From positions 6,262,001 to 6,326,000 of the forward strand of contig NZ_CP042912.1 in assembly GCF_008087665.1 (NCBI RefSeq): a DNA stretch of 64,000 bases, read 5' to 3'. Positions 2,059 through 33,620 of the stretch are shown here, in pieces (positions within the stretch are counted from its first letter, which is position 1; every line of letters begins with the position of its first letter). The notes beneath the pieces are model-generated. The model was not told where the DNA came from, ran no database searches, and saw nothing but the letters and a program-made list of their open reading frames with translations. The position numbers and the translations under genes were made by a program. The DNA comes from Mariniblastus fucicola (GTDB lineage: Bacteria > Planctomycetota > Planctomycetia > Pirellulales > Pirellulaceae).

Positions 2059-2943
2059 ATGAAATCACGAATTCAACTCGCGTGGACGATTGCTGCACTT
2101 GTATCAATCTCATTCGCATCAGGACAGACGTTGGCTCAAGAAGCTGCGACGCCGGTGGCCGTTGAGTCGGTCGTTCTGCTGTCGCCCGAAAACTCAAACA
2201 TCAGCTTCGTAGGAATTCACGTTGGCGACGATCCCAAGCCACGACTCGGGGGGTTTGCAAACTTTCATGGCTACGTGAAAGTCGATCCGGCAGCCAAGTC
2301 GGTAACGGGAATGTACGTCGACATCCACATCGATTCCGTGTGGACCGAGTTTGCGAAACTGACCGGGCACTTGAAGAACGCTGACTTTTTCGAAGTCGAA
2401 AAGTTTCCCACATCCAGCTTCATCAGCACCAAAATTGAAGCGACCGAAGCGGGCAAGTGCACCGTGACCGGCGATCTGACGTTGCATGGCGAGACGAAGT
2501 CCATCTCCTTTCCAGCGACCTACAAATTCGAAAATGGTGGACTGATTTTCGCCAGCGAGTTCGAGCTTGATCGTTCCATGTTCGGCATGGATAAAATGCT
2601 CAGTGGCGTTGCGCCAATGGTTTCTCTAAAGTTCGAAGTCGGAACAAAGACGTCTCCCAAAGCAGAACAGGACGGTCACGGCGGCGGCAAGAAAAAGCAG
2701 TCCAACAACGCGACCGAGTTGAAGACTCAGAAGGTTTCGCTCAAGCTGCCGAACATGACTTGAAGCGGCTGTGAAGCTTCCGTGCGAAGCGATTTGAAGG
2801 CCGAAGGTATCGCCAAAATCGAAACGGATCTCGATGAGAACACTTGTGTGTTCGAAATCGCGGCTGATGCGGATCCGAAGGCAATGCTCGACAGGCTGGC
2901 CGAATCCAACAGCAAGATCAAGGACTGGAGCTTTATCGAATGA
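2059..2943 (+). CDS. YceI-HMA fusion protein, probable selenoprotein (Sec235 at TGA 2761-2763)
   Basis: Seen: residues 1-26 are a signal peptide. Residues from about 40 to 210 form a YceI-like lipocalin-fold domain (FANFHGYVKVD, NADFFEVEKFPTSSF, DLTLHGETKS). A His/Gly/Lys-rich linker follows. At residue 235 the frame meets TGA within NMT-TGA-SGCEASV and then stays open for 59 more codons to a TGA at 2941. The downstream part has the length and pattern of a complete HMA metal-binding domain. TGA replaces the first Cys of the family motif MTCxxC. Known: Sec commonly replaces Cys in CxxC motifs, and bacterial Sec insertion needs a hairpin just after UGA; one is present. Inferred: a 294-residue exported selenoprotein that binds a soft metal or does redox chemistry. 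The alternative is a truncated 234-residue YceI protein. Confidence 0.8.
2764..2800 (+). promoter_or_regulatory. Candidate bacterial SECIS hairpin after TGA 2761-2763
   Basis: A perfect 5-bp stem GCTTC/GAAGC (2776-2780 with 2786-2790) closes a five-base loop CGTGC (2781-2785). There are 17 nt between the TGA and the loop, and G is the second loop base. This fits the usual bacterial SECIS pattern of a short stem, a small apical loop with an early G, and a spacing of roughly 16-37 nt. The helix may extend through a GA bulge (GAA with TTT). Five base pairs alone could arise by chance, so support comes mainly from the coding frame it sits in. Confidence 0.6.
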
Positions 2944-30625: not shown

Positions 30626-31876
30626 ATGCCAGACTTTCCAAACCTTGCCTTTGAGTTCACGATTCGTTGCTGGGCGACGCTATGTGAACTTTCTCCCTGG
30701 CTTCTGTTCGGCATGTTCATCTCAGGAGTCCTACACGTTGCCGTTCCCAAAAACCTGGTGCGACGTCGCTTTCGAGGATTCAGTGGAGTCGTCCAATCCG
30801 TGTTGCTGGGCGTTCCCTTGCCGCTGTGTTCTTGCGGCGTCATTCCGGCAGGGATTGGATTGAAGAATGACGGAGCGAGCGACGGTGCTTCGGTCGGGTT
30901 TCTGATCAGCACGCCACAAACGGGAATCGATTCCATTCTGGTGAGTGCTTCTTTTTTCGGTTGGCCGTTTGCGATCTTTAAAATGGCGACCGCTGCCGTG
31001 ACTGGCGTCGTTGGCGGCTGGTTGGCGGATGCGACTGGAGGTGATCTGGATGAAGTCGAAGCATCCGAATTGTCGATCGTGGATTCACGTGTTGGAAATT
31101 CGAAGACGGTTTGGTGGAGAGAACTTTGGTCGCATGCGATCGAAGTGCTGCAATCGATCTGGCTGTGGTTGCTGATCGGAGTCGCCATCTCCGCATTGAT
31201 TGGAACGTTTGGTTTTGAACATTTGATCAAACGGGTCGGCGATGCCGGGCTGCTTCCGGCAATGCTGCTGATGTTGCTAATTTCAATTCCGCTGTACGTT
31301 TGCGCGACCGCATCGGTGCCGATTGCGGCGGCTCTGGTGCAGTCCGGATTGCCCCCAGCGGTCGCGCTGGTATTTCTGATGGCCGGTCCGGCAACCAACG
31401 TGACGACCATGGGGGCCATTCGACAACGGTTTGGCTGGCGCGTGATGGGAATTTACCTGAGCACGCTGATCGTCGGCAGTTTTCTGGCCGCATTTTTGTT
31501 CGATTGGGTTTTGGACGCGACAGTCGCTACGGGCGATGCACACGTTCATGACCACCAGAACTGGCTGTCGATCGTCAGCGCTATCGTCGTCCTGTTGTTG
31601 ATCGGCCAGATCGTTGCGAAGCGTTATCTGATACCAAAACAAATCAGGAACGACTCAACCATCGAATTGTCTGTTTCCGGCATGCACTGCGGCAGTTGCG
31701 TAAGCCGCATCGAGACCGCGGTTGAAAACATGCCGAATGTAGACTCCGTCCGAGTCGACCTGGGACAAGGCATCGCAAGCGTTAACGGCGGTGCCTCGGT
31801 TGAGCAAATCGCTACGGTGATCGAAGATCTGGGTTTTAGTGTCGATCCAACGACGGGAGAAAATCATGGGCAGTGA
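30626..31876 (+). CDS. PF03773-type metal permease with C-terminal HMA domain
   Basis: This 416-residue membrane protein has two blocks of helices of the permease family that includes ArsP and SO_0444. The family motif LPLCSCGVIPAG contains Cys68-x-Cys70. A His-rich loop (DAHVHDH) precedes the last helices. The C-terminal 75 residues are a heavy-metal-associated domain with GMHCGSC (Cys355, Cys358). SO_0444-like members export metal(loid)s. The fused HMA domain implies soft-metal delivery or sensing. It overlaps slyX by 11 nt. The HMA domain here keeps both Cys, unlike the TGA-containing one at 2.76 kb. Confidence 0.85.
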   Translation: MPDFPNLAFEFTIRCWATLCELSPWLLFGMFISGVLHVAVPKNLVRRRFRGFSGVVQSVLLGVPLPLCSCGVIPAGIGLKNDGASDGASVGFLISTPQTGIDSILVSASFFGWPFAIFKMATAAVTGVVGGWLADATGGDLDEVEASELSIVDSRVGNSKTVWWRELWSHAIEVLQSIWLWLLIGVAISALIGTFGFEHLIKRVGDAGLLPAMLLMLLISIPLYVCATASVPIAAALVQSGLPPAVALVFLMAGPATNVTTMGAIRQRFGWRVMGIYLSTLIVGSFLAAFLFDWVLDATVATGDAHVHDHQNWLSIVSAIVVLLLIGQIVAKRYLIPKQIRNDSTIELSVSGMHCGSCVSRIETAVENMPNVDSVRVDLGQGIASVNGGASVEQIATVIEDLGFSVDPTTGENHGQ

Positions 31877-32087: not shown

Positions 32088-33620
32088 TACTACAGCGCTA
32101 GGTTGAATCCCAATAGCATCGTTTGATTTTGCTTACTTTGATGCCAATTCTCCGGAGTTTTTGGCGTGTTCTCTTGGTGTGTGATCGTGTTGCTTTTGCG
32201 TTTCGTTGTTGGTGGTACTGAATCGTAGCGGCAACCCGGTCCAGTAGCGCCGACGATGCCCGCCCCTTAAGCCACCAAGTCTGGACCAGTGCCGATACGG
32301 CGTCGTGAACCTGATAGACGGTGAACCCTGATTTTTTTTCCCCCGAGCTTTTCTCGCATCTTCGTCAAGAACAGGTAGCTTACGCACGACAGAATCATGT
32401 GTCGTTTGAGCCCGAGATACTTCCGGCCCTCCCAGGCGTCGAGTCCAATGTCCTGCTTTTGATCCTGGAAGCAACGTTCGACATGCCAGCGGCTGAAGGC
32501 AACGAGCAACAACTTTTGAACGCTTGTTGCAGCCGGCGCGTTGCTGAGAAAGTACTTGATTTCATCCGGCTTGAGTGGGTTACGAGCCACCAACAAGTGC
32601 CAACGCTTGCTCGAAACACACTTGCCGTCAGGACGATAGATCATCGCATGCTTGACTTCCCAGACCATGGGACCTTTATCTCCATCTTTGACGCGATAAC
32701 GCTCCCATGACTGATTCGTGAACCGCGTGGATTCTTCCAGCAGTTTGCGAAACGGCTGAGCTTTGGGATTGTCTTTGGCAACTCGCGCACCTTTTTGCGG
32801 CCGACCACGACACGGATCTTTGGGAGGATGTTGGAGCCCGGGTTTCTTGATCCAGCCGGTCATTGAAACCGGAACCTCGCCGATGAATAACTGTGCTTTG
32901 GCATCAAGAGCTCGTAAAAACGGGCCTTTGGAGCCGTAGCCTTCGTCAAAGGTGATCCACTCAAACTCCAGACCGTTGGACAGCGCGCGATCGTAAAGCT
33001 CCAGTGCGATCTTCCACTTTGGCTGATACACCATTTCGTCGGGGATCCCGGCAACGCGACAACGCTCGCGATCTTCAGACCAGCTCTCAGGAAGGAACAA
33101 CTCACCATCAAGCAAGCAGTGAAAGTCATCCTGAGCAAAAGCAAGATGAACCGTCACCATGCAGTTATCGGTCTTGCCAACCTTGCCACACCACTGACGC
33201 TGAACGCCAGGCGTCTTGGTGCCTTTCTTGACATCGCTCGTTTCGTCAAACACGCCGATGGCACGCTTGCTACCGCGCTCCGTTGCCACCATCTGTTGCA
33301 GACGATCTCGCACGGCGTCTTCATTCCATGCGTATTGAGCAAGAAACTCCTGAAGCGTGCGAACGGGAACTCCGGCAGCCAGTGCAATGGGCTCAACACT
33401 CTTGCGAGCAAGGTTTGATAGCTGACCCTGAACATACGTTGGCATATGAGCACGGGTATCTTTTCGACTAAAACAATCTGAGAACCGATTCAGAAAACGT
33501 GTCAAAGCTGGTTTCATCTGACGAATCCAAGTACCATCCATCAAAGCACCTCCTTGTGCATGAACGATATAGAATCCCAAATTTCAACTCATTCTCAAAT
33601 ATCAACCTAGCGCTGTAGTA
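32088..33620 (-). mobile_element. IS701-family insertion sequence, complete
   Basis: This 1533-bp element is bounded by 19-bp perfect terminal inverted repeats beginning TACTACAGCGCTAGG (32088-32106 and 33602-33620). It is flanked by a 4-bp direct repeat CTAG (32084-32087 and 33621-33624), and CTAG-like 4-bp duplications are usual for this family. It carries one intact transposase gene on the minus strand. Perfect repeats and an open frame suggest recent insertion and probable activity. Confidence 0.9.
32267..33541 (-). CDS. IS701-family transposase (DDE)
   Basis: This 424-residue transposase has family motifs: the first catalytic Asp in GVFDETSDVKKG, followed by GVQRQWCGKVGKTDNC; the second Asp in WITFDEGYG; and the Glu in HVERCFQDQKQDIGLD. 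The start ATG at 33541 has a strong GGAGG site just upstream; a longer frame from 33580 lacks this. The gene appears intact. Confidence 0.92.
   Translation of the reverse strand: MDGTWIRQMKPALTRFLNRFSDCFSRKDTRAHMPTYVQGQLSNLARKSVEPIALAAGVPVRTLQEFLAQYAWNEDAVRDRLQQMVATERGSKRAIGVFDETSDVKKGTKTPGVQRQWCGKVGKTDNCMVTVHLAFAQDDFHCLLDGELFLPESWSEDRERCRVAGIPDEMVYQPKWKIALELYDRALSNGLEFEWITFDEGYGSKGPFLRALDAKAQLFIGEVPVSMTGWIKKPGLQHPPKDPCRGRPQKGARVAKDNPKAQPFRKLLEESTRFTNQSWERYRVKDGDKGPMVWEVKHAMIYRPDGKCVSSKRWHLLVARNPLKPDEIKYFLSNAPAATSVQKLLLVAFSRWHVERCFQDQKQDIGLDAWEGRKYLGLKRHMILSCVSYLFLTKMREKLGGKKIRVHRLSGSRRRIGTGPDLVA

Follow-up and report, generated by a model that had tools for sequence, protein, structure and literature searches.

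The question raised by this locus is whether a TGA codon within an otherwise continuous frame marks the end of a YceI protein or is read as selenocysteine (Sec), and what such a residue might do in an HMA domain. The window (the whole 64,000-nucleotide stretch that was analysed, positions 6262001-6326000 of the single 6.57 Mb contig of Mariniblastus fucicola) carries on its forward strand, at 2059-2943, a candidate YceI-HMA selenoprotein gene of 294 residues that closes with a TGA stop at 2941-2943. The sole internal TGA of this frame is codon 235 (2761-2763), the predicted Sec235, and reading across it gives PNMTUSGCEASVRSDL, in which U occupies the first Cys position of the MxCxxC motif (MTUSGC); the second metal-motif Cys, Cys238 (TGT, 2770-2772), is invariant in a 32-row alignment. 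Frame and translation thus agree with the sequence-only reading, which had placed the TGA exactly at the first Cys of the HMA motif. Taken as a whole, the data are best explained by an exported selenoprotein with a Sec235/Cys238 soft-metal site, an account that we consider likely.

The genome appears equipped for the insertion of Sec. A tRNA-Sec scores 70.1 bits, above the cut-off (SeC, anticodon tca, by ARAGORN), and SelA (555.4 bits), SelB (355.7 bits) and SelD (265.1 bits) all exceed their curated cut-offs; the Sec pathway, the absence of which would have counted against the selenoprotein proposed from the sequence, is therefore present. Among 14 control genomes the cut-offs were passed by tRNA-Sec in five, SelB in two, SelA in one and SelD in two, which makes the tRNA-Sec model, passed by more of the controls (5/14) than any other, the least specific of these markers. 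Moreover, a second candidate selenoprotein is found on the reverse strand (L209, G000:C1:3928300-3930800): the frame is FdhA-like, its only TGA falls in ATUHAPTVAGL, and its best stretch scores 148.6 bits, under the TIGR01553 cut-off of 814.2. That a special tRNA inserts Cys, Trp or some other residue at the UGA is the least probable alternative, next to negligible: UGA-reading tRNAs of other kinds do occur in some bacteria, but the tRNA-Sec with SelA, SelB and SelD, the UGA in ATUHAPT of the FdhA-like frame and the conservation of the SECIS hairpin described below all speak against it.

The same codon recurs in relatives. The window protein was matched in 93 of 147 related genomes, and 48 of the matches, from 33 of the 147 genomes, span residue 235 with exactly one TGA; nine of the 48 are YceI fusions, the window's own included, the other eight being 43-62% identical to the window protein. 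At the loci examined, which include all 48 and L047 (a duplicate of L019), the motif carries U in 49 and Cys in three (L152, L161 and L172), while L173 has no site; L241 and L250, whose reading is odd or degraded, are also left out of the counts. Two fusions, L246 and L248 (recognized by eye from the YceI tail), and two Cys forms, L242 and L243, were added later. The sequence-only reading had pointed to a Cys codon in homologs, and an aligned Cys at the Sec position is indeed found in these five (L152, L161, L172, L242 and L243). Homologs run full length with one TGA and, instead of all ending before the HMA part, an outcome that would have spoken against a selenoprotein, many continue through it with the same TGA; the presence of the codon in so many different genomes also rules out a local error of sequencing. 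Two stop-free YceI matches that reach the HMA region, L026 and L027, resembled Cys fusions; of these, L027 was rejected, as it consists of YceI and EF-hands according to Pfam. Another YceI relative, L037, has a different C-terminal part, which contains CPVC.

Comparison of family and phylum-wide match counts indicates that the Sec form is concentrated in Pirellulaceae. Within the family, 54 of 241 genomes gave an HMA match at 1e-12. The 77 matches comprise 68 with one TGA, one with a TGA and a TAG, one with two TGA codons and seven with no stop; in 49 of the 241 genomes one or more of the matches carry exactly one TGA. In a phylum-wide draw of 392 genomes, 17 gave a match at 1e-9, with TGA in two (that of M. 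fucicola itself and G457) and no stop in 15. For named genomes, in which 80 loci were kept of 406 relatives, the listed ranges cover residue 235 in L047 only, and three stretches of viral contigs fit a pattern, with no relative among them. SelA is above its cut-off in 28 of the 33 TGA genomes versus 61 of the 114 others (one-sided Fisher p 7.7e-4, relatedness ignored), and SelB is above its cut-off in G003, G019, G022 and G116, among the five exceptions. G004 (80% complete) has Sec-type HMA genes, yet its SelA, SelB and tRNA-Sec all score under the cut-off. A Cys form is found in G080 (99% complete), where SelB and tRNA-Sec are not above cut-off and SelA reaches 259.9 of the 267.9 bits needed. 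Cys forms also occur in G056 and G075, both with the Sec pathway; thus, Cys is not restricted to genomes lacking the pathway.

The TGA could be an ordinary stop, with a YceI protein ending there and the HMA part either untranslated or a separate gene. TGA is a stop in table 11 and the first ORF terminates at it, so that standard gene calling would presumably omit the HMA part. Coding sequence and frame are, however, conserved past the codon. When the fusions are compared, divergence after the TGA falls mostly at third codon positions, much as in the YceI part, with 15, 12 and 30 differences at the three positions for L017/L018 (dN 0.27, dS 1.70) and 18, 13 and 29 for L017/L019 (dN 0.33, dS 1.35), dS being inestimable in many pairs for the YceI part and in one pair for the HMA part. 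Downstream of the TGA the amino-acid identity to L018, L019 and L020 is 54-61%. Judged by these substitutions, the sequence after the TGA is under constraint at the protein level. Nor would a separate gene have a start codon ahead of the second Cys, because AGC and GGC alone lie between the TGA and the TGT at 2770-2772, with no ATG, GTG or TTG, as had been noted from the sequence. The coding conservation past the TGA and the missing start led us to reject the ordinary stop and the separate gene, and the covariation of the hairpin and the occurrence of the identical TGA in lipoproteins without YceI (both discussed below) also weigh against termination, which we regard as highly improbable. No conserved operon partner emerged when the surroundings of the window gene and of eight other fusions were compared for ORFs of 90 aa or more: the YceI ORF alone is common to the loci, with three further clusters common to the close pair L207/L208 and one to L204/L205, and no metal-resistance neighbour conserved across the fusions was found. 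Since the window and the other fusions have no common neighbours, it is for its own sake that the fused frame is kept.

A hairpin lies downstream of the UGA at 2776-2790 (GCUUC-CGUGC-GAAGC; + strand), in which a 5-bp stem (2776-2780 with 2786-2790) closes a 5-nt loop, CGUGC, beginning 17 nt after the UGA. The bSECIS model, as given in the accessible part of PMC13188914, has a stem of 4-16 bp, a loop of 3-9 nt with a G in the first two loop positions and a distance of 16-37 nt from the UGA, and the hairpin lies within these limits for stem, loop, G and spacing. Its folding energy as a single sequence is unremarkable (z -1.04; 32 of 200 shuffles fold equally well), and it is the comparison across relatives, not the energy, that places it far beyond chance. 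With the registers fixed at 44-46, 39 of the 42 distinct Sec sites form a stem of 5 bp or more, whereas synonymous resampling (n=2000) gave 7.2 such sites on average and never more than 16. In the 30 sites that fit register 44 best, a selection by register that favours structure (the remaining 12 fit register 45 or 46 better), 98% of the cells pair and both sides are changed in 26 cells. Covariation scores 0.559 here; shuffled alignments give 0.174, with none of 500 reaching the observed value, and sliding the register gives 0.03-0.17. RNAalifold recovers the same five pairs. When later sites and register 54 are added, 52 of 53 distinct sites pass (11.2 expected, maximum 21), L149 being the one site without the stem; the 39/42 test is the cleaner of the two, because register 54 was added after inspection of L148 and L166. 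The five Cys sites, in turn, lack it, reaching 2, 4, 4, 2 and 1 bp. In a free-register scan, two of them, L161 and L172, have 4-bp stems at distances of 33 and 37 nt; a mere hairpin is therefore not diagnostic, whereas the fixed register is. By register and covariation in relatives, then, the 5-bp hairpin with a G-containing loop at SECIS distance that was first seen in the sequence is, on this comparative evidence, a bSECIS.

Several lines agree, namely the TGA itself, the exchange of Cys and Sec among homologs, the SECIS, the coding constraint and the Sec machinery, and for this reason Sec insertion is favoured; we regard the predicted reading of the UGA at 2761-2763 as Sec as almost certain. 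SelB and Sec-tRNA would decode the codon, directed by the hairpin at 2776-2790, and Sec235 would put its selenolate where the HMA metal site has its first Cys, giving UxxC.

The predicted protein would begin with a probable signal peptide (2059-2139, residues 1-27, the end set by eye), a hydrophobic N-terminus that runs to TLAQ and is helical at 3-20 in the model. It is followed by a YceI domain (2179-2640, residues 41-194; PF04264, 105.6 bits against a cut-off of 23.7), by a linker modelled at low confidence (2641-2721, residues 195-221, with GHGGGKKKQ; pLDDT under 50 at 208-220), which is variable in the alignment, and by the HMA domain (2722-2940, residues 222-294), a strand-helix-strand-strand-helix arrangement in the model. 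With the TGA written as X, Pfam HMA (PF00403) scores 27.1 bits, above the cut-off of 24.8, and with Cys in its place 35.8 bits, spanning residues 228-271; the suggestion that an HMA-like domain is coded on to 2943 is thus upheld. AlphaFold2, run on an 8-row alignment (mean pLDDT 79, pTM 0.60), predicts a barrel and a separate ferredoxin-like HMA fold in which residue 235 directly precedes the first helix (236-248). The best 15 Foldseek matches are YceI, BcnA/BcnB and polyisoprenoid-binding structures, and match 16 is oxidised MerP (1osd; E 3.5e-3, TM 0.71 by target). A profile of 32 Sec-HMA domains searched against PDB sequences matches the HMA domains of Cu-ATPases and MerP, and the residues surrounding the motif in the Sec-HMA domains are those of metal chaperones. 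In a six-frame search of the genome the window HMA scores 27.3 bits. Elsewhere in the window, at 30626-31876, a predicted membrane permease has a C-terminal HMA domain (60.1 bits) with MHCGSC and no TGA, and an ORF at 32267-33580 (- strand) resembles what we take to be an insertion-element transposase.

The Sec-HMA domain occurs in several settings: YceI fusions, short lipoproteins, proteins with a signal peptide and a charged, probably helical domain, and a four-HMA frame, with signal peptides and lipoboxes assigned by eye or from a simple pattern. In the L135-type proteins the additional N-terminal domain, called helical by eye, has no Pfam match above cut-off, and that of L148 has a sub-threshold match to LTXXQ (18.1 versus 24.3 bits). 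In a tree of 51 domains over 76 columns the nine YceI fusions group together, with support of only 84/80. The fusion belongs to a family of apparently exported HMA selenoproteins concentrated in Pirellulaceae. The four-HMA frame, L240 (G568:C92, 1234-2586), has 450 codons and a lipobox-like start; each HMA domain has a TGA in MTUGGC followed by a hairpin of 6-8 bp, and Pfam, with X at each TGA, recovers four HMA stretches (81.3 bits). It also carries a Cys-rich insert, GDCCASKKACCKAC, and the DNA identity among its repeats, 72-81%, shows that they are not recent copies. L240, a single frame from one assembly of a single genome (G568, 87% complete), is a predicted four-Sec protein. The same genome contains an HMA fragment (L250, G568:C275, - strand) that may be decaying: its motif has the U but carries Arg where the second Cys would be, and a stop comes early.

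What might the site do? Sec235 and Cys238 probably bind a soft metal, for example Hg(II) or Cu(I), to capture it or pass it on, in the way that MerP or CopZ/Atx1 use two thiols, and the YceI barrel, from a family that binds isoprenoid-like ligands (title of 1wub), may bind a ligand or act as an anchor within the envelope. On this reading the protein would present a selenolate/thiolate soft-metal site in the envelope, its export, its metal and the role of YceI being inferences. The main rival to metal binding is a redox role, in which Sec is inserted and UxxC forms an envelope redox centre working by selenenylsulfide, thiol-disulfide or peroxide chemistry, with metal not the substrate. The part of PMC13188914 available deems most uncharacterised selenoproteins probably redox proteins and relates UxxC to redox functions. 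The fold here, however, is HMA and not thioredoxin-like, the residues flanking the motif match those of metal chaperones, and the tandem HMA domains of L240 resemble a metal array; we consider the redox role possible but rather unlikely. Soft-metal binding is favoured because of the HMA fold and motif, the export-like proteins and the four sites in one relative, and is probably the main role of Sec235/Cys238.

Sec in HMA-type proteins is precedented, in a UxxU protein, a ZntA-type ATPase and a metagenomic MerP. NF041115 (UxxU_metal_bind) is likewise a selenoprotein, small, HMA-like and metal-binding, with Sec at the place of CxxC, and is termed a 'putative mercuric reductase' in reviews; it has two Sec (UxxU, by its table entry in PMC13188914), whereas the window protein combines a single Sec with a YceI domain and, at 16.7 bits against a cut-off of 95, is not a member. 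The UxxC cation ATPase (ZntA-type), by its entry in the same table, also has UxxC in a metal-transport protein but is a membrane ATPase, and Pfam finds no ATPase domain in the window protein; it is listed with the UxxU metal-binding protein in PMC13188914 and likewise in the part of PMC9312934 available. MerP (TIGR02052) is similarly an exported HMA protein, and no solved single-domain HMA came closer in the fold search than its structure 1osd. The window protein, read with Cys, scores 23.4 bits against a cut-off of 92.55 and is not a member; it differs by its YceI fusion and by the lack of mer operon neighbours at the locus. The GOS survey table lists a MerP selenoprotein with two sequences (PMC2398784), compared here by that table entry. 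NF045683 (MerT_CopZ_Se) is a selenoprotein that also has a CopZ-like part but is fused to a MerT-like part, and the window protein, at 19.7 bits against a cut-off of 375, is not a member; indeed, it lies under every NCBIfam cut-off. The N-terminal domain matches the YceI family (PF04264; polyisoprenoid-binding TT1927b, E. coli YceI) by sequence and structure, and the window protein adds a C-terminal Sec-HMA domain. Of the 119 selenoprotein families or subfamilies listed by a 2026 review (PMC13188914), no YceI or small single-Sec HMA entry was seen in the part of its table available, and nothing relevant was found in the accessible part of PMC12013277. A paper on planctomycete genomes reports selenoproteins (PMC4807772, as seen in part), and a member may be among the selenoprotein candidates for two planctomycetes in its S9 Table. 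In the open-licence literature, to which our search was confined, supplements such as that table lying outside its scope, no description of a YceI-HMA Sec fusion or of a four-Sec array was found.

We propose, as an idea that stands in even balance, that the fusion represents a portable envelope Sec-HMA module of Pirellulaceae in which the role of Sec is to bind metal rather than to do redox chemistry, that is, a selenolate soft-metal trap. Sec is discussed mostly as a redox residue, and here it would lie in a well-understood metal-ligand site. If true, the four Sec of L240 would exceed the two to three of the small multi-Sec subset in the part of the review available (PMC13188914), and the frame makes one ask how many SECIS events a single bacterial mRNA can accommodate. 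Moreover, since the domain is small and has natural Cys counterparts, the contribution of selenium to metal binding would be directly measurable.
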